Translations under genes and position numbers: made by a program
Shown here: positions 27,433-40,231 of the stretch, one piece after another
How positions within the stretch are numbered: the first letter of the stretch is position 1
How the letters are laid out: every line of letters begins with the position of its first letter
Origin: Hyphomicrobiales bacterium
Lineage (GTDB): Bacteria; Pseudomonadota; Alphaproteobacteria; Rhizobiales; Rhizobiaceae
Reading direction: 5' to 3'
NCBI GenBank assembly: GCA_017305835.1
Contig: JAFKJY010000047.1
Coordinates: 1 to 64,000, forward strand
Length of the DNA stretch: 64,000 nucleotides
Notes under the pieces: model-generated
The model's input: only the letters and a program-made list of their open reading frames with translations
What the model was told of the DNA's origin: nothing
Databases searched by the model: none

Positions 27433-28101
27433 TCAGTCGCGCAGTTCGCCGACGAGCTGGGCGACGAAGTCGCGCATGTACTGGGTGCGCTCCTGCGCGA
27501 GGCGGCGGCCTGCGTCCGTCTGCATCGTGGTCGCCAGGCTCCACAGCTTCACCTCGAAATGATCGAGGGCGAACTTCTTGTCGTCGAGCGGCCGGTGTTC
27601 GGCCAGCGGGTCGCCGCCGTCGAACAGACCGCTGCCGAGCATGCCCGCGATGTAGAAGGCGCGTGCGATGCCGATCGCGCCCAGTGCCTCGATGCGGTCG
27701 GCGTCCTGCAGGATGCGCGCCTCCAGCGTCTGCGGCTTCTTGCCGGCGGAGAAGCTGTGGGTCTCGATCGCATGGCAGGCCGCCTCGATGCGCGCCTCGT
27801 CGATGCCCAGCTCGCGCAGGATCGGCCGCGCGGCATCCGCCGACATGGCCGAGGCCCGCGAGCGGTCGGGATGGTTCTTCGGCAGGTTGACGAGGTCGTG
27901 CAGATAGGCCGCGCAGGCGAGCGTCACCGCATCGGCGCCACCTTCGGCCTGGGCGATGCGCAGCGCCATGCGCAGCACCCGGCGCGAATGGTGCACGTCG
28001 TGGCTGCCGTCGGAGCCGTCGTCATGGGCCGAAAGCACCGCCTCCAGGCGCTCGCACAAGGGTTGCAGCGCCTGGTTGCCGGCGGTCGCGTCAGTCTTCA
28101 T
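27433..28101 (-). CDS. HD-domain metal-dependent phosphohydrolase
   Basis: Protein of 222 residues with the HD signature: DVHHSRRVLRMA (first His), AAYLHDLVN (His-Asp pair), HAIETHSF and ILQDADRIEALGAIGIARAF (last Asp). It resembles the YfdR/YedJ group, whose members act on nucleotides or related phosphates. It is the last gene of the operon with MalF, MalG and MalK, and its ATG overlaps the MalK stop (ATGA). In a cluster with SAH-hydrolase-like and adenosine-deaminase-like genes, a nucleotidase role is plausible but inferred. Confidence 0.85.
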   Translation of the reverse strand: MKTDATAGNQALQPLCERLEAVLSAHDDGSDGSHDVHHSRRVLRMALRIAQAEGGADAVTLACAAYLHDLVNLPKNHPDRSRASAMSADAARPILRELGIDEARIEAACHAIETHSFSAGKKPQTLEARILQDADRIEALGAIGIARAFYIAGMLGSGLFDGGDPLAEHRPLDDKKFALDHFEVKLWSLATTMQTDAGRRLAQERTQYMRDFVAQLVGELRD

Positions 28102-29237
28102 CTGCTGGATACCTGTCGTCTCGGGAGGGCCTCGGCGGCGAAGTCGATCCGGCCGCCGTCCGCGCCGAAGAAGTGGAGATGCCGCGGCGGGACGGAGACC
28201 GTTATAGTGCCGTCGAGCGGTGTGCCAACCGGAACCCGCACGCGCAGCAGCCTTTCCCCAAGCCGCAGCGTCACCAGCACCTCGGTGCCGAGGAGCTCGC
28301 GGCGCTCGATCGGCGCGGAGACGGTGAGCCCGCCCTCGGCCGCCGGCCCGAGCGCGACCTCCTCGGGACGGAAGCCGAGCACGACCTCGCGTCCGGCGGG
28401 ATAGCCGTCGAGCCGCGCTTCCGCCCCGTCGCCGGTGGTCAGGCGCCCGTCGGCGGTCTTGCCCTCGATCAGGTTCATGCGGCCCATGAAGTCGGCGACG
28501 AAGGTGTTGCGCGGCGCAAGGAAGACATCCTCGGGGCTGCCCTGCTGCTCGATGACGCCGCCGCGCATGACGACGAGATGGTCGGCCAGCGTCAGCGCCT
28601 CGGTCTGGTCGTGGGTGACATAGATGGTGGTGGCGCCGATCTGGCGCTGCAGCGCGCCGAGCTCGGCCCGCATCTCGGCCCGCAGCTTGGTGTCGAGGTT
28701 GGACAGCGGCTCGTCCATCATCAGCACGTCCGGCCCGCGCACGATGGCGCGCGCGATGCCGACGCGCTGGCGCTGGCCGCCCGACAGCTCGGAGGGGCGC
28801 CGCCCCAGATAGTCCTCGATGCGCACCAGCCGCGCGGCGGCCGCCACCCGCCGCTCGATGTCGGGCTTGGGCATGCGCGCCATGCGCAACGGGAAGCCGA
28901 TGTTGCCGGCCACCGTCTTGTCCGGATAGAGCGCGTAGTTCTGGAACACCATGGCGACGCCGCGCCGCTCCGCATCCACCTTGGTGACGTCGCGCTCGCC
29001 GAAGCGGATCGTGCCGGCCGAGGTGTCCTCCAGCCCGCAGACGCAGCGCAGCAGGGTGGTCTTGCCACACCCCGACGGACCGACGATGACGGTGATCCTG
29101 CCGGCCGGGCAGGTCAGCGAGAGATCGGTGAAGGTCGGGCGCGCGGCGCCCCTGTAGGTCTTGCCGAGGCCGGCGAGGGTGACTTCGGGGGCGCTGCGGC
29201 GCGCGGGCGGTGCGGTGGTCTTGCCGTCTGGCATCAT
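28098..29237 (-). CDS. Sugar-type ABC importer ATPase (MalK/UgpC family)
   Basis: ATPase of 379 residues: Walker A GPSGCGKTT (about 53-61), Q-loop FQNYALYPDK, signature LSGGQRQR, Walker B VLMMDEPLSNLD and H-loop THDQTEAL, then the MalK-type regulatory domain. The N-terminal extension MMPDGKTTAPPARRSAP is longer than usual, so the true start may be internal. It energises the MalF/G permeases of the same operon and probably serves the binding protein encoded at 35234-36493. Confidence 0.92.
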   Translation of the reverse strand: MMPDGKTTAPPARRSAPEVTLAGLGKTYRGAARPTFTDLSLTCPAGRITVIVGPSGCGKTTLLRCVCGLEDTSAGTIRFGERDVTKVDAERRGVAMVFQNYALYPDKTVAGNIGFPLRMARMPKPDIERRVAAAARLVRIEDYLGRRPSELSGGQRQRVGIARAIVRGPDVLMMDEPLSNLDTKLRAEMRAELGALQRQIGATTIYVTHDQTEALTLADHLVVMRGGVIEQQGSPEDVFLAPRNTFVADFMGRMNLIEGKTADGRLTTGDGAEARLDGYPAGREVVLGFRPEEVALGPAAEGGLTVSAPIERRELLGTEVLVTLRLGERLLRVRVPVGTPLDGTITVSVPPRHLHFFGADGGRIDFAAEALPRRQVSSR

Positions 29238-29268: not shown

Positions 29269-30111
29269 TCACTCGACCTGGCCGGCGGACATCGCGATGC
29301 CGTTGATGAACTGCCTCTGCGCCAGCAGGAAGCCGACGAGCAGCGGCAGCACGGAGAGCGTGGCGGCCGCCATCTGCGGGCCGTAGTCGCTGCCGAGCTC
29401 GGCGTCGAGGAAGCGCACGATGCCGAACGGCACGGTGGCGGCCGCGTCCGAACGCAGCACGAAGGACGGCCAGAAATAGTCGTTCCAGTGCGACACGAAG
29501 GAGAAGATGCCGAAGGTGACCAGTGCCGGCCGCGCCATCGGCAGCACCACCGAGAACAGCGTGTGGAAGGCGCCGGCGCCGTCGAGCCGCGCCGCCTCGA
29601 AGACGGAGCCCGGGATGGCGAGGAAGAACTGGCGCAGCAGGAAGACGCCGAAGGCGTTGGCCACGAAGGGCAGGATCAGCGCCGAGCGCGTGTCGATCAG
29701 GCCGAACTGGGCGAGGATCACGTAGACCGGGATCGCGGTGACCTGATAGGGGATCATCAGCGCGCCGAGCACGATCCACAGGCTCAGCTCGCGGCCGGAA
29801 AAGTGCAGCCGCGCCAGCGCATAGGCCGCCGGCACGCAGACGATGACCTGGCCGATGAAGATGGCGACCACGACGAAGATGCCGTTGAAATAATAGCGCA
29901 GGATCGGCACCTCCGCGAAGACGCGGCGGAAATTGTCGAGCGTGACGGTGCCGAGCGTCAGCATGTTGCCGGAGAAGATCTCGGCTTCTGGCGTCAGCGC
30001 GGCGCGGATCATCAGCCAGAACGGCAGCAGCATGAAGATCGCGCCGGCTGCGAGCGCCACATGCACGGCGATCTGGCCGGGCGCGAAGGGCGAGGTGGAA
30101 CGTTTCGTCAC
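29269..30111 (-). CDS. Sugar-type ABC importer permease (MalG family)
   Basis: Inner-membrane permease of 280 residues starting at GTG 30111, which overlaps the MalF stop (GTGA). The first helix is near residues 14-34 (VHVALAAGAIFMLLPFWLMI). The EAA loop is EAARLDGAGAFHTLFSVVLP, and the C-terminus AQRQFINGIAMSAGQVE is characteristic of MalG-type CUT1 permeases. It lies between the malF-like and malK-like genes of the LysR-controlled island. Confidence 0.92.
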   Translation of the reverse strand: MTKRSTSPFAPGQIAVHVALAAGAIFMLLPFWLMIRAALTPEAEIFSGNMLTLGTVTLDNFRRVFAEVPILRYYFNGIFVVVAIFIGQVIVCVPAAYALARLHFSGRELSLWIVLGALMIPYQVTAIPVYVILAQFGLIDTRSALILPFVANAFGVFLLRQFFLAIPGSVFEAARLDGAGAFHTLFSVVLPMARPALVTFGIFSFVSHWNDYFWPSFVLRSDAAATVPFGIVRFLDAELGSDYGPQMAAATLSVLPLLVGFLLAQRQFINGIAMSAGQVE

Positions 30112-31043
30112 CGGCTGCCCGCCCTTTCGAGGCGCCGCGAGGCGCGCTTCTGGATCCATGTGGCGAGCAGCGCGAAGGCGAGCAGCACCACGGTGACGAC
30201 GGCGCCGCCGCCGATGTCGAAATAATAGATGCCGCGCTTCCACAGCAGGTAGGTCAGCGTCTCGGAGCTGGCCGCCGGGCCGCCCTTGGTCATGGTCGCG
30301 ATGGTGTCGAAGATGCGCAGTGCCTGGATCGAGCTGATGACGGCGGCGAAGACGGTTGCCGGGCCGAGCGCGGGCCACGTCACGTGCCAGAAGCGGTGCC
30401 AGGCCGAGGCGCCGTCGATCCGCGCCGCCTCCAGCAGATGCTTCGGTACGCCGGCCAGCCCGGCGAGGTAGACGATAGCCACGAAGCCGATCTGCTGCCA
30501 GTTGCCGACGAGGGCGACGGCGGGCAGCGACAGGTCGCTGGAGTTCAGCCAGTCGGTGAGCCCCATCCACTTGCCGACCGTCTGGTCGACAAGCCCGCGC
30601 CGCGCCAGGAACATCCAGCGCCAGACGATCGACATGGCCACCAGCGTGGCCGCGACCGGCAGGAAATAGGCCGCCCGCCAGAAGCTGCCGCCCGCCCTCA
30701 GGCCGTTGATGCCGAGCGCGACGAGGAGGCCGAGCACCATCGAGGGCGGCACCGTCAGCAGCGCGTATTCGATGGTCACCACGATCGAATTGGCGATCTC
30801 GCCGCGGCCGATCGCCTGCTGGATGTTGCGCAGGCCGGTGAACTTCCATGTGCCGGCCAGGATGTCGACGTTGAAGAACATCAGGGCGACGGTCAGCACG
30901 CCGGGCGCCAGCACGAAGATGCCGATCAGCACGATGAGCGGCGACACGAAGACGTAGGGCTCCAGCCGGCGCGACAGCCAGCGGCGCGGCAATGGCCGCG
31001 ACGGCTCGGCGAGAATGTCGGCGTCGGCGACGGCTGTCGTCAT
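30108..31043 (-). CDS. Sugar-type ABC importer permease (MalF family)
   Basis: Inner-membrane permease of 311 residues. First helix FVSPLIVLIGIFVLAPGVL, CUT1 segment FTGLRNIQQAIGRGEIANSI, EAA loop EAARIDGASAWHRFWHVTWP. The ATG at 31043 has AAGGGGA about 10 bases upstream. It is the first gene of the malF-malG-malK-HD operon. A LysR box is centred about 83 bp upstream of its start, the position expected of an activator's recognition site. Confidence 0.92.
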   Translation of the reverse strand: MTTAVADADILAEPSRPLPRRWLSRRLEPYVFVSPLIVLIGIFVLAPGVLTVALMFFNVDILAGTWKFTGLRNIQQAIGRGEIANSIVVTIEYALLTVPPSMVLGLLVALGINGLRAGGSFWRAAYFLPVAATLVAMSIVWRWMFLARRGLVDQTVGKWMGLTDWLNSSDLSLPAVALVGNWQQIGFVAIVYLAGLAGVPKHLLEAARIDGASAWHRFWHVTWPALGPATVFAAVISSIQALRIFDTIATMTKGGPAASSETLTYLLWKRGIYYFDIGGGAVVTVVLLAFALLATWIQKRASRRLERAGSR

Positions 31044-31118: not shown

Positions 31119-31133
31119 ATAGGCAGCCTCTAT
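31119..31133. promoter_or_regulatory. LysR-type box A upstream of the MalF/G/K operon
   Basis: ATAG-N7-CTAT inverted repeat fitting the T-N11-A rule. On the minus strand it reads ATAG..G.TGCCTATC.GGC, and the same word recurs at 37477-37491 upstream of the MBL gene. The box starts 76 bp before the malF-like ATG. A possible second half-site GCTATCA lies nearer the promoter (31098-31104), as expected for an activation site. Confidence 0.65.
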
Positions 31134-32113
31134 TGGGCCGCCTCGCCGGCCGGCGCCGCGCCGCTCGCGAGCCTGCGCGCCACCAGCAGGAAGCGCTCCA
31201 GTTGCGGGTTGAGGCTCTGCCGCTGCCAGTAGAGGCCGAGCCGGATCGGCCGCAGCGGCGGCTCGGTGGGCCGCACCACCATGCCATCCGGGATCTGGAT
31301 CGTGTCGGGCGAGACCAGGCAGGCGGCGCCGCTTGAGTTGGCCAGCCCGATCTGGGCCGAGACGTTGGTCACTTCGGACGGGTGCAGCCGCGGCTCGATG
31401 CCGAGGTCGCGCAGGGCGGCGAGCTGGTAGTCGTAGTGGGCGGGATGGTGTGTCCGGGGCAGCAGGATGATCTCGAACTGCGCCACGTCGCGTGGTGCCA
31501 GCGCGCGCTTGCGCGCCAGCGGCGAGCTCGCCCGGAAGCACAGATTGTAGGGCGCCGACCAGAAGATCAGGTGGTCGAGGGTGCGCGGCAGCTCGACCGG
31601 CGTCGGCAGCGACAGGAAGCCCGCGACCAGCCGCCCCTGCCGCAACTCGTTGCACATCTCGATCGCCGACATCTCGACGACGTGCGGCTGGAGGCTCGGA
31701 TAGGCGCGCTTGACCTCGGCCAGCAGGTGCTCGATCTGCGGATAGCTTTGGTAGCTCGGGATGCCGATGCGCAGCGGCTGGTCGGAATATTCGGGCCTGA
31801 GCTGCTCCAGCGCCGCGCCCATGCTGGCCAGGATGGGCGTGATCCGCTCCAGCAGGCCCCGGCCTTCCGGCGTCAGCGAGAAGCCGCTGGAGCCGCGCTC
31901 GACCAGCGACACCTCCAGCGCCTGCTCCAGCTTGGCGATCTGCTGGCTGAGGGTGGGCTGGCTCACCGACAGGCCAGCCGCGGCGACGCGGAAGTTCTTC
32001 CGCCGCGCCAGCTCGACGAAATAGATGAGCTGCCTCAGGCTCACGCGCCTGAGCAGCCGCGCCGCTTCGCGCGATATGATTGCGTCGTCGTTTCGTACCA
32101 CGCGCCGGCCCAC
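31130..32113 (-). CDS. LysR-family transcriptional regulator
   Basis: Regulator of about 327 residues. The winged HTH is LRQLIYFVELARRKNFRVAA, then LSVSQPTLSQQIAKLEQALE, and the rest is a periplasmic-binding-type effector domain (QPLRIGIPSYQSYPQIEHLL onward). LysR proteins act as tetramers on T-N11-A boxes. Two matching boxes sit at 31119-31133 and 37477-37491. The start is uncertain: GTG 32113 opens the frame but has no clear ribosome site, and the homology begins near VSLRQLIYF. It lies inside the cluster it probably controls, in the same orientation as all nine other genes. Confidence 0.9.
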   Translation of the reverse strand: MGRRVVRNDDAIISREAARLLRRVSLRQLIYFVELARRKNFRVAAAGLSVSQPTLSQQIAKLEQALEVSLVERGSSGFSLTPEGRGLLERITPILASMGAALEQLRPEYSDQPLRIGIPSYQSYPQIEHLLAEVKRAYPSLQPHVVEMSAIEMCNELRQGRLVAGFLSLPTPVELPRTLDHLIFWSAPYNLCFRASSPLARKRALAPRDVAQFEIILLPRTHHPAHYDYQLAALRDLGIEPRLHPSEVTNVSAQIGLANSSGAACLVSPDTIQIPDGMVVRPTEPPLRPIRLGLYWQRQSLNPQLERFLLVARRLASGAAPAGEAAQ

Positions 32114-32217: not shown

Positions 32218-33414
32218 TCAGGCCGCCGCGGGCGCCTCGTCGACCCAGGCCCGCACCGCCAGCGCGGCGACCTCGGCCTCGATGTCGGCCCGCACGCTGT
32301 GCACGCCGGCCGGCAGCGCGCGGCCGTGGCGGGCGAGCTGCTCCAGGCTGAGCGATTGCAGCGCAAGGCCGAGATCCATGATCTCGATCGGGTTGCCGTC
32401 GCCGGCCGCGAGGTTGATCAGGTTGCCCTTGGCGACGAGATAGATGCGGCGGCCGTCCTGAAGCCGCAGCGCCTCGACATGCTCCCTGACCTGCACCGTC
32501 TCGACGGCGAGCGCGCGCAGGTGCGGCAGGTCGATCTCGGTGGCAAAGTGGCCGGCATTGGCGATCAGGCAGTTGTCGGGCAGCAGGGCCAGCATGCGGG
32601 CGTCGAGCGCATTCGTCCTGCCGGTCACGGTCACGACGATGTCGGCGATCGGCAGCGCGTGGTCGAAGGGGAGCGTGCGGAAGCCCTCAAGATGCGCCTC
32701 CAACCGCGTCATCGGGTCGGTGTCGACCACCACGACATGCGCCCCCATGCCGCGCAGCCGCTGCGCCACGCCCGAGCCGCAATAGCCGTAGCCTATGAGC
32801 ACCACGGTCTTGCCGTGCAGCATCAGATTGGTCGCGCGCATCAGACCGTCGACCACGGAGCTGCCGACGCCATAGCGGTTTTCGACCACGCGCTTGGCGC
32901 GCGTGTCGTTGATGACCCAGGTGGCGAAGCCGAAGGGCGGCATCTCCTCGCGCAGGCGGTAGCCGCCGGTGGTCGTCTCCTCGGTGGCGCCGCGCAGCGT
33001 GCCCTTCAGCCCGGCGAAGGGCACCTCGACGGCGATCAGACCGTGCAGGTCGGCGCCGTTGTCGGCGATCAGGTCGGGGCGGCCCGACAGAACCGCCCGG
33101 CAATGGTCGAGATGCTCCTCATAGGTCTCGCGGCGCGCGCCGAAGGCGACGACGCCCGGCATCTCGTTGAGGGCGGCCGCCACGTCGTCCTGCGTCGAGC
33201 CGGGGCTGCCGGTGACGCGGATCTTCGCGCCCCCGGCCGTCAGCGTCTCGACCCAGACGCCGGTCTTGGCCTCGACATGCAGGCAGATGCCGATGGTCAG
33301 CCCCTCGAACGGGCGCTCCACGGCGAAGCGGGCGCGGATGCGCTCCATGATGGGCATGTGCGCCCGCGCCCATTCGATGCGTGTCCGGCCGGACCGGATC
33401 GTTTCCTCGCGCAT
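32218..33414 (-). CDS. Divergent S-adenosylhomocysteine hydrolase-like protein
   Basis: Protein of 398 residues of the adenosylhomocysteinase family, which uses bound NAD to split or form thioether nucleosides. Matching regions: CLHVEAKTGVWVETL, GSTQDDVAAAL, GATEETTTGGYRL, INDTRAKRVVENRYG, the Rossmann loop GYGYCGSG and NAGHFATEID. Aligned by eye to human SAHH, redox/catalytic His55, Glu156, Lys186 and His301 are kept. Thr57 becomes Glu, Glu59 becomes Lys, Asp131 Asn, Asp190 Glu and His353 Asn; the C-terminal Lys/Tyr tail is absent. The substrate is therefore probably not SAH. Start ATG 33414 follows AAGGAG. It neighbours an adenosine-deaminase-like gene. Confidence 0.8.
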   Translation of the reverse strand: MREETIRSGRTRIEWARAHMPIMERIRARFAVERPFEGLTIGICLHVEAKTGVWVETLTAGGAKIRVTGSPGSTQDDVAAALNEMPGVVAFGARRETYEEHLDHCRAVLSGRPDLIADNGADLHGLIAVEVPFAGLKGTLRGATEETTTGGYRLREEMPPFGFATWVINDTRAKRVVENRYGVGSSVVDGLMRATNLMLHGKTVVLIGYGYCGSGVAQRLRGMGAHVVVVDTDPMTRLEAHLEGFRTLPFDHALPIADIVVTVTGRTNALDARMLALLPDNCLIANAGHFATEIDLPHLRALAVETVQVREHVEALRLQDGRRIYLVAKGNLINLAAGDGNPIEIMDLGLALQSLSLEQLARHGRALPAGVHSVRADIEAEVAALAVRAWVDEAPAAA

Positions 33415-33500: not shown

Positions 33501-34475
33501 TCAATTTGCGCCCAGCCTTTCCCGCAGCCCGGCCCGCTCCGCCGTCGTCGCGAAGCCTGCCTCGACCGCGTTGCGCGTCAGCCCGCGCAGCTCCGCCTCG
33601 GTGAAGCCGAAATGGCGCGCGGCGATCTCGTATTCGGCGGCGAGCGAGGTGCGGAAGAAGGGCGGGTCGTCAGAGTTGAGCGTGACCTTCACGCCGGCGT
33701 CGTGCAGCCGCCGCAGCGGATGCGCGGCGAAGTCCGGGTAGAAGCCCAGCATGACGTTGGAGCCGGGACAGACTTCGAGGGTCACACCCCTGTCGGCCAG
33801 CTCTTCGACCAGCGCCGGGTCCTCGACGGCGCGCACGCCATGGCCGATGCGGGTGACGCCGGGGATCGACAGCGCCTCGCGCACGCTCTGCGGCCCCGCC
33901 GCCTCGCCGGCATGGATGACGATGCCGAGCCCGGCGTCGCGCGCGATGGCGAAGGCGTGGGCGAACTGCGCCGGCGGATGCGTCGCCTCGTTGCCGGCGA
34001 GGTTGACGGCCCTGACGCTTTGCCGCCGCAGCCCGGCCGCCCAGCGGGCGGTCGTCTCGCAGGCTTCGGCGCCGTCGTGCCGAACCAGCACGACCTGCAG
34101 GGCGCAGAGCGGCCCGCCGGCCGCCCCTGCCTCGGCCATCGCCGCCTCGACCGCGTCGAGCGCGGCTTCCGGCGCGAAGCCGTTCTGGCGCGGCAGGTCG
34201 GGCCAGAAGATCATCTCCTGGTAGACGACGCCGGCCTGCGCGGCCGCATCGAGGTAGTCGCGGGTGATGTCGTAATAGTCCCGCTCGTCACGCAGGCAGG
34301 AGCCGACGACCCGCGTCAGCTCCAGGAAGTCGGGGAAGTCGACGTAGCGGTAGCCGCCGTCGGGGCCGAAGCAGGCCTGCGGCAGCCGCACGCCGTGGCG
34401 GGCGGCGAGCCTGCGGGCGCGCTCGGGGCTGACGGTGCACTCCAGATGGACGTGCAACTCCGCTTTCGGGACCAT
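33501..34475 (-). CDS. Adenosine/adenine deaminase-family protein
   Basis: Zinc-dependent deaminase of 324 residues. Metal and catalytic residues are all visible: ELHVHLE (two His), VIHAGEAAG (His and catalytic Glu), RIGHGVRA (His) and LNSDDPPFF (Asp pair). The opening HLECTVSP replaces the HLDGA/HLEGA of classical enzymes, so the purine-binding lid may differ. It would convert an adenosine-like product to its inosine form in the cytoplasm. It lies between the HAD hydrolase and the SAH-hydrolase-like gene, an ordering that suggests consecutive steps. Confidence 0.85.
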   Translation of the reverse strand: MVPKAELHVHLECTVSPERARRLAARHGVRLPQACFGPDGGYRYVDFPDFLELTRVVGSCLRDERDYYDITRDYLDAAAQAGVVYQEMIFWPDLPRQNGFAPEAALDAVEAAMAEAGAAGGPLCALQVVLVRHDGAEACETTARWAAGLRRQSVRAVNLAGNEATHPPAQFAHAFAIARDAGLGIVIHAGEAAGPQSVREALSIPGVTRIGHGVRAVEDPALVEELADRGVTLEVCPGSNVMLGFYPDFAAHPLRRLHDAGVKVTLNSDDPPFFRTSLAAEYEIAARHFGFTEAELRGLTRNAVEAGFATTAERAGLRERLGAN

Positions 34476-34479
34476 CGTC

Positions 34480-35145
34480 TCAGCCCCGCCTGGTCCGGCC
34501 GGACAGGTCCACGACCCGGCGCGCCGCGTCGAGCAGCGTGTCGGCGACGGGCGCGCCGGTGGCTGCCAGCCGGTGCGCGGCGTTCATGCCGGTGGTCACC
34601 AGCACGGTCTTCGCGCCGAGCGCATGGGCGGCGAGGAAATCGTCGACCGTGTCGCCGATCAGCGTGATGCGGGTCGGCTCGCAGCCGAGCGCGGAGATGT
34701 GGCGGCGCAGGCTCTCCACCTTCTTGTCCTGGCCGAGGACATGCGCCCCGTCGACCCGCATGAAGAAGTCGCGGATGCCGCGCAGGCCGACGAGCTCCTG
34801 CAACTCCTCGTCGGGGGCCATGGACAGGATCGACTGGCCGATGCCGTGCTCGCGCAGCAGCGCGAGCGACTGCAGTGCGTCGATGGCGAGCGGCAGGTCG
34901 CGCTTGACCGGCTCGTAGGCATCGACGTAGCGCCGCATCGAGGCCTCCATCTCGTCGGCCGTCGGGTCGCGCCCGACGAGCTGGCGGAAGAAGTCGGAGA
35001 AGGGCCGGGTGTGCGCGCTGCGGATGTCGTCATGGGTGACGTCGGCGCGCCCGGCATTGCGGATCATCACCGCCGAGACCTCGGCTGTGATCTCGAAATC
35101 GTCGAGGAGCGTTCCGTTCCAGTCCCAAACGACGTGATCGACCAT
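34480..35145 (-). CDS. HAD-superfamily hydrolase with DxN motif I
   Basis: Protein of 221 residues with the HAD plan: motif I WDWNGTLLDD (nucleophile Asp8), a helical cap from about residue 15, motif III Lys in GQDKKVESL and motif IV IGDTVDD. The second Asp of DxD, normally the general acid/base in phosphatases, is Asn10. DWNGT variants occur in part of the HAD-IA group and may mark slow or non-phosphatase activity. It starts at ATG 35145, 4 bases before the ADA-like gene in the operon order. It could dephosphorylate a nucleotide or sugar phosphate. Confidence 0.83.
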   Translation of the reverse strand: MVDHVVWDWNGTLLDDFEITAEVSAVMIRNAGRADVTHDDIRSAHTRPFSDFFRQLVGRDPTADEMEASMRRYVDAYEPVKRDLPLAIDALQSLALLREHGIGQSILSMAPDEELQELVGLRGIRDFFMRVDGAHVLGQDKKVESLRRHISALGCEPTRITLIGDTVDDFLAAHALGAKTVLVTTGMNAAHRLAATGAPVADTLLDAARRVVDLSGRTRRG

Positions 35146-36552: not shown

Positions 36553-37398
36553 TCAAAGTCGGATGCTGGTCGTTTCCACCGCGAGTTCGACGGCCGTATT
36601 GCATTCGGCCTTGGCCGCATCGAGCGCGGACGGTCCGTCCTCGAGCGCGGCGAGATGGGTGAGCAGGAGGCGCCGGGCGCCGCTGGCGCGCGCCAGCCGG
36701 CCGGCTTCCGCTGGGCTCATATGGGCGCCGCCGGGCGGGTGCGAGCCCGAGAAATGGCCCTCCGCGACCAGCAGGTCGGCGTCGCGGGCGAAATCGACCA
36801 GCGGCCCGTGCCAGCGCGTGTCGCCCGTATAGACGAGGCGCTTGCCGGCATGGTCGATGCGCATCGCGACCGCACCCGGAATATGGTCGACGGGCAGCGT
36901 GTCGACGGTGACCGGGCCGAGATCGACGCGCGCACCGGGGGCGAACTCGACGACGTCGAACACGTCGAACATCCAGTCGCGGCCGGCCCGCGCCACCTCG
37001 CGCAGCGAGGCGAAGCCGGGGCCGAGTTCGTCGTCGGTGAACGTCCAATACTTGTGGCCGAACAGGCCCGACAGCCGTTCCAGATAGGCCGCGCCGCCTT
37101 CCGGCATGGCGAGCTTCACCCGGTGCAGCGTGCGGTGCTTGATCCACTCCGTCATCAGCGCGTAGCCGACGGCGACGAGGTCGAGCGTGTGGTCCGGGTG
37201 GATGTGGGTGATCGTGATCGCGTCGACGTCGACGGCGCGACCCAAAGCCAGCAGCCGCGCCGCCACCCCCGGCCCGCAGTCGAGGAGGATGCGACTGCCG
37301 GCCGTTTCGACGAGATAGCCCGAGCAGGCATGGCCGCCATACGGATAGCCGCCGGCAGCACCCAGCACGGTGAGAACGATCTCGTTCCGATCGGGCAT
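36553..37398 (-). CDS. Metallo-beta-lactamase-fold hydrolase (RNase Z/AtsA-like)
   Basis: Protein of 281 residues. The zinc motif is THIHPDHTLD (HxHxDH), with DTLPVDHIPG (His), VYTGDTRWH (bridging Asp) and LLLTHLAAL (late His). This is the layout of RNase Z, arylsulfatase AtsA and cyclic-nucleotide phosphodiesterase relatives. ATG 37398 gives the natural N-terminus MPDRNEIVLTVLGAAGGYPY; longer frames run into the regulatory region. It is promoter-proximal in the LysR-controlled unit, with box B 79 bp upstream of its start. A phosphodiester or sulfate ester substrate would fit the cluster. Confidence 0.83.
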   Translation of the reverse strand: MPDRNEIVLTVLGAAGGYPYGGHACSGYLVETAGSRILLDCGPGVAARLLALGRAVDVDAITITHIHPDHTLDLVAVGYALMTEWIKHRTLHRVKLAMPEGGAAYLERLSGLFGHKYWTFTDDELGPGFASLREVARAGRDWMFDVFDVVEFAPGARVDLGPVTVDTLPVDHIPGAVAMRIDHAGKRLVYTGDTRWHGPLVDFARDADLLVAEGHFSGSHPPGGAHMSPAEAGRLARASGARRLLLTHLAALEDGPSALDAAKAECNTAVELAVETTSIRL

Positions 37399-37427
37399 CC
37401 CTGTCACCTGCACCTCAACTGCCCGGC

Positions 37428-37491
37428 ATCCTATCCGAGCCTCGCGGGAGGCAGATGACGGAAATCCCGATGCCCGATAGGCAACGGCTAT
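37428..37491 (-). promoter_or_regulatory. LysR-type box B and probable promoter of the MBL operon
   Basis: ATAG-N7-CTAT at 37477-37491 matches box A at 31119-31133, including the shared TGCCTATC and the following GGC. A minus-strand -10-like TAGGAT lies at 37433-37428. With transcription starting near 37421, the box centre is at about -63, the classical LysR recognition position. Box A has the same distance to its gene within 3 bp. Confidence 0.62.
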
Positions 37492-37566
37492 CACCGGAAC
37501 GACGGAGCGGTCGCGACCGCGGATGCTGCGGATTGTCGCAGAGCCGCGGCACTTCTGTTCCGCCAT

Positions 37567-37651: not shown

Positions 37652-38668
37652 ATGCCGAGACCGACACCCTTCTCCACCGCCATCGACCGCCGCGCCGTGC
37701 TGGCCGGCATGGGCAGCGCCGCGGCGTTGCCGCTTCTGGCAGCCGCCGCAGGCCGCGCGTCGGCCGCCGCGCTGGCGGAGCTCGCCCTCTACGGCCCGCC
37801 GGCCGGCCCCTCCATCACGCTGGCGCATGCCGCCGCCTCCGGGGCGCTCGCCTCGATCGCCGACAAGGTGAGCTTCAAAGTCTGGCGCAACCCCGACGAA
37901 ATGCGCGCCGGCCTCACCTCGGGCACGATGCAGGCGGTGGTGCTGCCTGTGCAGGCGGCCGCCGGCCTCTACAATCGCGGCTTCCCGCTGAAGCTGCTCA
38001 ACGTGATGACCAAGGGCCTGCTCTACGTCATCTCCGCCGATACGGCGGTGGCCGGCTTCGCCGACCTCAAGGGCAGGAAGCTCGCCGTGCCGTTCCGCAA
38101 CGACACGCCGGACCTCGTGCTGGCGCGGCTCCTGAAGCACGAGAAGCTGACGGCCGGCACGGACCTGACCGTGGAGACGGTCGGCTCGCCGGTCGAGGCG
38201 ATCCAGATGCTGCTCGCCGGCAGGGTCGACGCCGTGCTGGCGCCTGAGCCGGCGATCTCGGCAGCCATCATCCGGGCCAAGGGCGCCGGCAAGACGATCG
38301 CCCGCGTCATCGACATCCAGAAGGTCTGGGGCGAGGTGAGCGGCGGGCAGCCGGTGCTGCCGCAGGCCGGCCTGGCGCTGACGAACGCCTTCACCGGGGC
38401 CAATCCCGGCGCCGCCGACGCCCTGCAGGAGGCGCTTGAGAAGGTGGCGGCCGCCGTCAACGCCGTGCCGGAGAAGGCGGCGGCGGACGCCGCGGACGCG
38501 CTGGAGATGCCGGCCCCGGTGATCGCCGCGTCGGTCGCGACGTCGAACCTCGTGGCCGCGCGCGCCTCGACCATGCGGGCCGAGATCGAATCCATGCTGA
38601 CGACGCTGTCGGACGCCGACCCCGCCCTGATCGGCGGCAAGCTGCCCGACGACGGCTTCTATCTCTGA
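37652..38668 (+). CDS. ABC substrate-binding protein (NMT1/TauA-like) with Tat-like signal
   Basis: Exported protein of 338 residues. The N-terminus DRRAVLAGMGSAAALPLLAA is a short twin-arginine-type signal. The mature part has the periplasmic type II fold of nitrate/sulfonate/taurine/pyrimidine-precursor binders: MRAGLTSGTMQAVVLPVQAA, FADLKGRKLAVPFRNDTPDL, and AIQMLLAGRVDAVLAPEPAI. It heads a four-gene unit with its permease, ATPase and nnrS. The cargo is unknown; the association with nnrS points to a role during nitric-oxide stress or denitrification. Confidence 0.85.
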   Translation: MPRPTPFSTAIDRRAVLAGMGSAAALPLLAAAAGRASAAALAELALYGPPAGPSITLAHAAASGALASIADKVSFKVWRNPDEMRAGLTSGTMQAVVLPVQAAAGLYNRGFPLKLLNVMTKGLLYVISADTAVAGFADLKGRKLAVPFRNDTPDLVLARLLKHEKLTAGTDLTVETVGSPVEAIQMLLAGRVDAVLAPEPAISAAIIRAKGAGKTIARVIDIQKVWGEVSGGQPVLPQAGLALTNAFTGANPGAADALQEALEKVAAAVNAVPEKAAADAADALEMPAPVIAASVATSNLVAARASTMRAEIESMLTTLSDADPALIGGKLPDDGFYL

Positions 38669-38672
38669 GCCG

Positions 38673-39485
38673 ATGATGGGCGCGGCGCTGTCCCGGCTCG
38701 GCCGCACGGGAAGCTTCCTGTGGTCGGCCTGGTCCGGGCTCGCCGCGCTGGCGCTGCTGGCGGCGGCGTGGCAGGCGGGCCACGAGGCCTATGGCGAGTT
38801 CATCCTGCCCGCCCCGCTCGACACGCTTGCCGCCGGCTTCGCCATCCTCTCCGACCCGAAGGCGTGGGAGGTGGCGCTGCTCACCGGCACCCGCGCCGTC
38901 GAGGGCTTTGCCGTCTCGGCGCTGGCCGGCGCGGCGCTGGGGTTGGCGGCCGGCTACTCGCCGGCGACGCTGAGGCTGGCGCGGCCGCTGGTGACCGTGC
39001 TGCTCGGCGTGCCGCCGATCGCCTGGATCGTGCTCGCCATGATCTGGTTCGGCTCCACCGACGGCACCGTCATCCTCACCATACTGGTCTCGGCCGGGCC
39101 GCTGGTCTTCGTCGGCGTGGCCGAGGGCGTGATGACGCGCGACCGTGGGCTGGACGACATGGCGCGCGCCTTCGGCGCCGGCCCGATCCGGCGACTGACC
39201 ACGCTCGGCCTGCGCCACGTCGCGGCGCATCTCTTCCCGGCGCTGGTGGTGGCGCTCGGCATGGGCTTCAAGGTCGCCGTCATGGCCGAACTGCTGGCCA
39301 ATGTCGGCGGCATCGGCGGCGAGCTGGCGCGAAGCCGCGCCAATCTCGACGTGGCCGGCGCGCTCGCCTGGGTGACGATCGCGGTCGCCGCGCTGATCGT
39401 GGTCGAATACGGCATCGTGCATCCGGTCCGCTCCGAGTTCGAGCGCTGGCGGGCGGCAGCGCGGCCGTGGGGCGTCAAGCGATGA
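38673..39485 (+). CDS. ABC importer permease (TauC/SsuC family)
   Basis: Inner-membrane permease of 270 residues with six predicted helices. The opening segment AYGEFILPAPLDTLAAGFAI is typical for nitrate/sulfonate/taurine permeases. The EAA loop is DDMARAFGAGPIRRLTTLGL. It starts 5 bases after the binding-protein stop and overlaps the ATPase gene (ATGA). Confidence 0.88.
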   Translation: MMGAALSRLGRTGSFLWSAWSGLAALALLAAAWQAGHEAYGEFILPAPLDTLAAGFAILSDPKAWEVALLTGTRAVEGFAVSALAGAALGLAAGYSPATLRLARPLVTVLLGVPPIAWIVLAMIWFGSTDGTVILTILVSAGPLVFVGVAEGVMTRDRGLDDMARAFGAGPIRRLTTLGLRHVAAHLFPALVVALGMGFKVAVMAELLANVGGIGGELARSRANLDVAGALAWVTIAVAALIVVEYGIVHPVRSEFERWRAAARPWGVKR

Positions 39486-40231
39486 GCGCGCTCGCCCTTT
39501 CCCGCATCGGCCACGCCTATTTCGGCCGCACGGTGCTCGACCATATCGACCTTGCCGTCGCCCCGGGCGAGATCGTGGCGCTGGTCGGCCCGTCCGGCTG
39601 CGGCAAGAGCACGCTCGTCCACATCGCAGCCGGCATCGTCGAGCCGCTGCGCGGCACGGTCGCGACCCGCTACCGCCGCCACGCGATGGTGTTCCAGGAG
39701 CCGCGCCTGCTGCCGTGGGCGAACGCGCGCGACAACATCGCCTATCCGCTGCGGCTTTCGGGCGCGCCGCGCCACGAGCGCCGTGCGCGCGCGGAAGCCG
39801 CGGCCGCGCGGGCCGCCTTCGATGCCGTCGACCTCGACAAATATCCGGTGGAGCTGTCCGGCGGCATGCGCCAGCGCGTGGCGATCGCGCGGGCGCTCGC
39901 GGTCGAGCCGGACTTCGTCTTCTTCGACGAGCCGTTCACCGCGCTCGACGCCGCGCTCAAGCGGCGCATGCAGGACCTCGTCATCGAGGCGGCGGAAGGT
40001 GCGCATTTCGGTGCGCTGTTCGTCACCCATGACCTGATGGAGGCGGCGCGGATCGCCCACCGCATCGTCGTGCTGGAGCTGTCCGGCAACGGCATAGCGG
40101 GCGAGCGGGCGCTGCCCGGCCGGCCGGGCGAGCGGGAGGACGCCGAGGTGTTCGCGACGGTGCAGGCCTTCCTGCGGGCCGACCCGCTGTTCCGCCACAT
40201 CCACGACGTCGACGAGCGCAGGGTGGCCTGA
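39482..40231 (+). CDS. ABC importer ATPase (TauB/SsuB family)
   Basis: ATPase of 249 residues with Walker A GPSGCGKST, Q-loop FQEPRLLPWANARDN (the form characteristic of TauB/SsuB/NrtD), signature LSGGMRQR, Walker B FVFFDEPFTALD and H-loop THDLMEAA. It pairs with the permease encoded just upstream. The nnrS start codon lies 3 bases after its stop, so the four genes are probably one mRNA. Confidence 0.92.
   Translation: MSALALSRIGHAYFGRTVLDHIDLAVAPGEIVALVGPSGCGKSTLVHIAAGIVEPLRGTVATRYRRHAMVFQEPRLLPWANARDNIAYPLRLSGAPRHERRARAEAAAARAAFDAVDLDKYPVELSGGMRQRVAIARALAVEPDFVFFDEPFTALDAALKRRMQDLVIEAAEGAHFGALFVTHDLMEAARIAHRIVVLELSGNGIAGERALPGRPGEREDAEVFATVQAFLRADPLFRHIHDVDERRVA

Follow-up and report, generated by a model that had tools for sequence, protein, structure and literature searches.

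Described enzymes of the SAHH fold and the window locus

Both the S-adenosylhomocysteine (SAH) hydrolase (SAHH) superfamily and its hypoxanthine motif are already known. In SAHH, Asp131 has been assigned as the proton donor to C4', the 2'-OH is held by Asp190 and Glu156, and, in the mouse enzyme, the contacts between His353 and the base are made through the main chain (PMC4647836). The hypoxanthine motif, HxExK, has been tied by assays and crystal structures to a preference for S-inosyl-homocysteine (SIH), its Glu bonding N1 of hypoxanthine and its Lys bonding O6 (Koeppl et al., 2024, PMC10978960). SAHHs are also known to release the base as a side reaction, as adenine or hypoxanthine turned up in all set-ups with them (PMC10978960). 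The fold has also been recruited elsewhere: AgmF, from angustmycin A biosynthesis, is a SAHH-fold dehydratase that acts on a non-SAH nucleoside and recycles its own NAD+, and its Asp129 and Asp188 are essential, the alanine mutants being dead (PMC8599513).

We analysed a 64,000-nucleotide stretch of DNA from a Hyphomicrobiales bacterium (the window), which carries a paralogue of this superfamily (SAHHp). Its open reading frame starts with ATG preceded by AAGGAG, and its GC3 of 0.93 is similar to that of a neighbouring gene. The protein matches the Pfam families AdoHcyase_NAD (7.8e-44) and AdoHcyase (2e-23), and the NCBIfam adenosylhomocysteinase model NF004005 above its cut-off (411 vs. 275), but misses the equivalog cut-off of TIGR00936 (386 vs. 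497.6 bits). Structure prediction, as proposed in the earlier note on this DNA, gave a SAHH fold: the AlphaFold2 model, made from a 26-sequence alignment, has a mean pLDDT of 93.2 and a Z of ~55 against the SAHH structures of Synechocystis, Sulfolobus, M. maripaludis and Pyrococcus. SAHHp is thus a predicted NAD-using relative of the SAH-recycling enzyme. The idea of a paralogue beside a housekeeping copy hinged on there being another ahcY in the genome, and a separate canonical one is present on contig C141 (G000:C141:31177-32556), whose product is ~31% identical to SAHHp.

SAHHp is the fifth gene of a ten-gene run on one strand (Table 1), which, from strand and spacing, we infer to be one transcript. 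The deaminase is the only match to A_deaminase (PF00962) in the genome, and therefore may simply serve general purine salvage. Directly upstream of the run lies a divergent SsuABC/NMT1-type ABC transporter (window positions 37652-40231). Rfam and tRNA scans of the window gave no matches.

Table 1. Genes of the ten-gene run, in their order along the strand (window positions).
Feature	Position	Strand	Evidence or remarks
MBL-fold hydrolase, cyclic-nucleotide phosphodiesterase / RNase Z-like	36553..37566 (start may be 37398)	minus	NF041851 2.1e-37, below its cut-off
UgpB-like carbohydrate-type ABC solute-binding protein, 419 aa	35234..36493	minus	profile matches
HAD-family phosphatase	34480..35145	minus	HAD_2 1.2e-13
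Adenosine-deaminase family protein	33501..34475	minus	PF00962 2.3e-83; N-terminal metal motif HVHLE
SAHH-superfamily paralogue (SAHHp), 398 aa	32218..33414	minus	HxExK, Asn131, Glu190, no Asn80, no C-terminal Lys/Tyr tail
LysR-family regulator	31130..32041	minus	45% identical to the LysR divergent from the Pseudovibrio orthologue (L010)
ABC permease, UgpA-like	30108..31043	minus	named by position and by eye
ABC permease, UgpE-like	29269..30105	minus	profile matches
ABC ATPase, UgpC/MalK-like	28098..29237	minus	profile matches
HD-domain phosphohydrolase, PRK10119-like	27433..28101	minus	37% identical to the HD half of the Clostridia MBL-HD fusion

Active site and base pocket

Residues are given in human SAHH numbering with window numbering in brackets, from alignments of SAHHp with solved SAHHs and with the AhcY encoded on C141. 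These alignments agree with every substitution that the earlier note had read by eye. His55 (H46), Glu156 (E146), Lys186 (K174) and His301 (H289) are kept, as are Asn191 (N179) and the GxGxxG NAD loop (GYGYCGSG); Thr57 is changed to Glu (E48), Glu59 to Lys (K50), Asp131 to Asn (N119), Asp190 to Glu (E178) and His353 to Asn (N341). Overlooked in the earlier note was the deletion of a single residue, Asn80, from the lining of the putative homocysteine access channel; the window clade has lost it. Mutants of Asp130 and Asp189 in rat SAHH reportedly have a kcat below 1%, a figure that we do not use as evidence.

The changes differ in what they say about function. SAHHp lacks the canonical adenine-binding motif HxTxE/Q and reads H46-V-E48-A-K50 (HVEAK) in its place, an HxExK motif. 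The proposal of a new substrate therefore stands insofar as the substrate is probably not SAH, but the Glu57/Lys59 pocket is the published fingerprint of SIH preference (PMC10978960), and we have dropped the idea of a pocket of unfamiliar meaning. The exchange at His353 tells little about the pocket on its own, because the base contacts there are made by the main chain (PMC4647836). Nor is the missing C-terminal Lys/Tyr tail distinctive. Its absence is real: SAHHp ends in VRAWVDEAPAAA, the genome's own AhcY in PEHYRY, and when SAHHp is aligned with its best-matching archaeal PDB chain, the match also stops ~20 residues short of that chain's C-terminus. However, archaeal-type enzymes are known to be short at the C-terminus too.

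The earlier note had also seen a retained oxidation-elimination engine, and half of this survives. The 3'-oxidation set (His55, Glu156, Thr157, Lys186 and the NAD loop) is present. Since Asp131, the C4' proton donor (PMC4647836), is Asn, the 3'-oxidation half appears to be kept and the C4'-C5' elimination half altered.

SAHHp thus shares with canonical AhcY (its own on C141, and human SAHH, 1LI4) the fold and the residues His55, Glu156, Thr157, Lys186, Asn191 and His301, and differs in both base-binding side chains, Asp131, Asp190, the channel residue Asn80 and the tail. The SIHH-type enzymes (M. jannaschii SIHH, PfuSAHH (7R37/7R38) and MmaSAHH (7R3A)) resemble it in fold, NAD domain, HxExK, the lack of a 40-residue insert and a short C-terminus. 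The window clade differs from them by Asn131, Glu190, Asn353, the deletion of Asn80 and a C-terminus that is shorter still.

A coupled Asn131/Glu190 branch and its gene neighbourhoods

We classified 125 sequences from the gathered loci after dropping duplicate places. Glu57/Lys59 with Asn131 and Glu190 occur together in 55 of them, Asp131 with Asp190 in the other 70, and no sequence has a mixture. The 55 paralogues span Proteobacteria, Bacillota, Actinobacteria and Chloroflexi; further phylum-wide matches in Actinobacteria and Bacillota (~36-46% identity to their own queries) are unclassified by motif and were excluded from the clade. With these residues fixed throughout the 55, the pattern in the window is not a matter of chance. 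His55, Glu156, Thr157 and Lys186 are invariant in all 55, so selection evidently keeps 3'-oxidation, and a dead protein is unlikely given that catalytic residues are invariant across several phyla. The gate/catalytic residue His301 is less constant, being replaced in 5 of the 55: the paralogues at L018, L019, L022, L024 and L035 have Ala, Met, Gln or Cys there, with the 3'-oxidation residues intact.

The earlier note had suggested a tree against true AhcY. In ours, from which 42 motif columns were left out, a branch with bootstrap 100 and SH-aLRT 99 sets the Asn131/Glu190 sequences apart. On the opposite side are canonical AhcY and the enzymes of Pyrococcus, M. maripaludis, Thermotoga, Sulfolobus and Synechocystis (five structurally characterised SAHH/SIHH), so that the window clade is separated from the characterised SIHHs. 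This tree is unrooted and does not give the order of ancestral and derived states. The long-branched Vibrio nigripulchritudo sequence was omitted from it and fell on the same side in a quick tree. We found no description of this coupled bacterial branch or of its nucleoside-operon setting in the open-licence literature searched.

HxExK is wider than the coupled change, occurring also in 8 of the 70 Asp131/Asp190 sequences. Several SAHHs outside the branch have settings of their own. At L026:7167-15153, an HxExK SAHH with the Asp pair kept lies with an MtnA-like IF-2B protein, a CRP-family regulator and a PnrA nucleoside ABC system. Actinobacterial/MAG SAHHs at L047:7390-11113, L042 and L044 have HxExK, the Asp pair and a GDGNPIEIMD-type motif, and the one at L047 adjoins a SAM hydroxide adenosyltransferase, a methyltransferase and an arginase/agmatinase-family protein. 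A SAHH homologue on a haloarchaeal plasmid (L135:2169-7257; HLEQK, with EQTT replacing EETT) is found beside QueT/ECF transporter genes.

Close orthologues of SAHHp (54-64%) are scattered over Agrobacterium rubi, Pseudovibrio, Kordiimonas, Shewanella, Vibrio, Photobacterium, Ferrimonas and gamma MAGs. With a strict cut-off on family-wide samples, they or the rhizobial clade were found in 8/169 Vibrionaceae genomes and in 15/171 genomes of the Agrobacterium family. Canonical AhcY is present alongside the orthologue in the window genome, Agrobacterium, Pseudovibrio, Kordiimonas and two gamma MAGs; in 14 orthologue-bearing genomes of Vibrio, Photobacterium, Shewanella and Ferrimonas it is absent and LuxS is present. 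As these hosts have one or the other, SAH recycling there is handled by something other than SAHHp. One Vibrio splendidus genome has two SAHHp copies (L012, L017), each with its own LysR and NupC.

The closest parallel to the window is an operon on a conjugative plasmid of V. nigripulchritudo (L060), which reads nucleoside hydrolase-SAHHp-adenosine deaminase-ribokinase-DeoR..NupC. Its SAHHp, annotated only as adenosylhomocysteinase, shares with the window protein the coupled Asn131/Glu190, HxExK and an adjacent deaminase, and differs in its sequence (~39% identity) and in having another transporter and regulator. An Actinobacteria MAG has ribokinase-nucleoside hydrolase-SAHHp, where only reading and tblastn identify the ribokinase. 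In Vibrio and Photobacterium the arrangement is SAHHp-NupC and the LysR gene is divergent, and NupC is more distant in Shewanella. The Clostridia neighbours are a CRP-family gene, an MBL-HD fusion and a PnrA/BMP-type nucleoside ABC system. These fusions (L030:6489-8006 and L031:6554-8047) lie in the nucleoside-importer operon, opposite SAHHp, and join two domains that are encoded by separate genes in the window; the MBL half at L030 matches the anti-Pycsar Apyc1 family (1.7e-45).

We scored loci for a nucleoside deaminase, hydrolase, phosphorylase, ribokinase or nucleoside transporter within 8 kb. Such neighbours occur at 17/66 clade loci vs. 1/51 other SAHH loci (canonical 0/42; Fisher p 0.0002), a contrast that is inflated and serves only as a guide, because the panel derives from the clade loci themselves and many of the loci are related. 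Rhizobial clades C and D have none of the neighbours scored, and their contexts (GFO/IDH/MocA, HAD, zinc ADH, IclR) show no consistent theme.

Candidate reactions of SAHHp

Our preferred reading, held tentatively and at a little under even chances, is that SAHHp serves catabolism, using NAD+ to act on a modified hypoxanthine nucleoside instead of SAH. Its parts are not equally firm. Since HxExK is a tested SIH/inosine fingerprint (PMC10978960), the substrate class is strongly suggested to be a hypoxanthine nucleoside. Neighbours in four of six clades point with moderate force to catabolism, and the deaminase that adjoins SAHHp in both the window and the V. nigripulchritudo operon speaks for the same role. 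Chemistry on the 5' side, with Glu178 as a relocated base, is at best hinted at. More generally, the inosine signature, the lost catalytic acid and the place next to a deaminase within a transport operon indicate that SAHHp probably degrades or repairs an unusual imported nucleoside.

In the pathway that we envisage, a purine would enter as nucleoside or nucleotide through the UgpBAEC-like transporter, any phosphates would be stripped by the MBL, HAD and HD hydrolases, and the adenosine deaminase would turn adenine into hypoxanthine. SAHHp would bind the deaminated product via Glu48 (N1) and Lys50 (O6), and its bound NAD+ would oxidise the 3'-OH with Lys174, Glu146 and Thr147. The resulting 3'-keto group would let a substituent leave. 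Given the invariant His46, this would most likely happen on the 5' side, and the carboxylate would come from Glu178 in place of Asp131. Addition of water and re-reduction of the ketone would give inosine or a closely similar product, which a nucleoside hydrolase or phosphorylase would split so that the ribose could be used. Against this reading, the transporter is of the sugar/glycerol-phosphate type, clades C and D are without the nucleoside neighbours scored, and the deaminase may belong to general salvage.

The residues themselves point in two directions. An invariant His55 would favour 5'-side chemistry after 3'-oxidation. The change of Asp131, the C4' proton-transfer residue, to Asn and the replacement of His301 in some members would argue against ordinary 5' elimination and, with the deletion of Asn80, favour chemistry elsewhere. 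It is conceivable, though we would give it only about one chance in three, that this widespread bacterial branch switched chemistry altogether: 3'-oxidation of hypoxanthine nucleosides would be kept, the C4' acid/base replaced and the 2'/3'-side carboxylate lengthened, giving another redox-neutral reaction (redox base loss or epimerisation of an unusual sugar) within nucleoside-scavenging operons.

A serious rival, though less likely than the preferred reading, is an NAD-dependent nucleosidase, losing the base as redox glycosidases do, or an enzyme that epimerises some unusual nucleoside sugar; in either, the 3'-keto intermediate, without Asp131, would react at C2'/C1'. Several residues are on its side: the oxidation residues are kept and the C4' acid/base lost in 55/55, the 2'-OH contact Asp190 is always Glu in the clade, channel Asn80 is deleted in the window clade, His301 is replaced in some members, and base loss is an established side reaction (PMC10978960). 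However, His55, which contacts the 5'-oxygen and activates water, never varies, a nucleosidase would be redundant in the two operons that have a nucleoside hydrolase, and we found no precedent for either activity in the superfamily.

SAHHp as a true S-inosyl-homocysteine hydrolase on a deamination-first SAH route, in which the neighbouring deaminase makes SIH and SAHHp converts it to inosine and homocysteine, is improbable. HxExK and the adjacent deaminase do parallel the DadD-SIHH route of M. jannaschii (PMC10978960), and the PDB relative 7r3a from M. maripaludis is named as such an enzyme; the deaminase of that route is a DadD-type SAH deaminase, and the one beside SAHHp belongs to the PF00962 family. 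But the SIH-preferring Pfu and Mma enzymes and that of T. maritima retain Asp131, Asp190 and the channel Asn-Pro, the Asn131/Glu190 clade lies outside them at 100/99, its hosts already recycle SAH via AhcY or LuxS, and the gene is sporadic, as its count in Vibrionaceae illustrates.

An AgmF-like dehydratase, forming an exocyclic double bond on the sugar, is very unlikely. AgmF does set a precedent for the SAHH fold on a non-SAH nucleoside with self-recycled NAD, but its two essential aspartates are the very positions changed in SAHHp to Asn119 and Glu178 (compared through the published mutants), and its biosynthetic setting differs from an operon that looks catabolic and in which we saw no nucleoside-antibiotic genes. 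We give almost no credence to the ideas that SAHHp is a spare SAH hydrolase next to AhcY or that it regulates without catalysing anything. The NF004005 call would fit a SAH hydrolase, but the TIGR00936 score is far under its cut-off, Thr57, Glu59, Asp131 and Asp190 are all changed, and catalytic residues that stay constant over several phyla do not suit a dead protein.

Annotation pipelines name these proteins adenosylhomocysteinase. Under that name, genomes that recycle SAH via LuxS seem to own a SAH hydrolase, and a branch in which two catalytic residues have changed in perfect concert goes unseen. If the reaction of SAHHp is new, the SAHH fold would gain a nucleoside chemistry for scavenging unusual purine nucleosides, and the Asp131/Asp190 pair would be a simple sequence marker separating methyl-cycle from catabolic enzymes.
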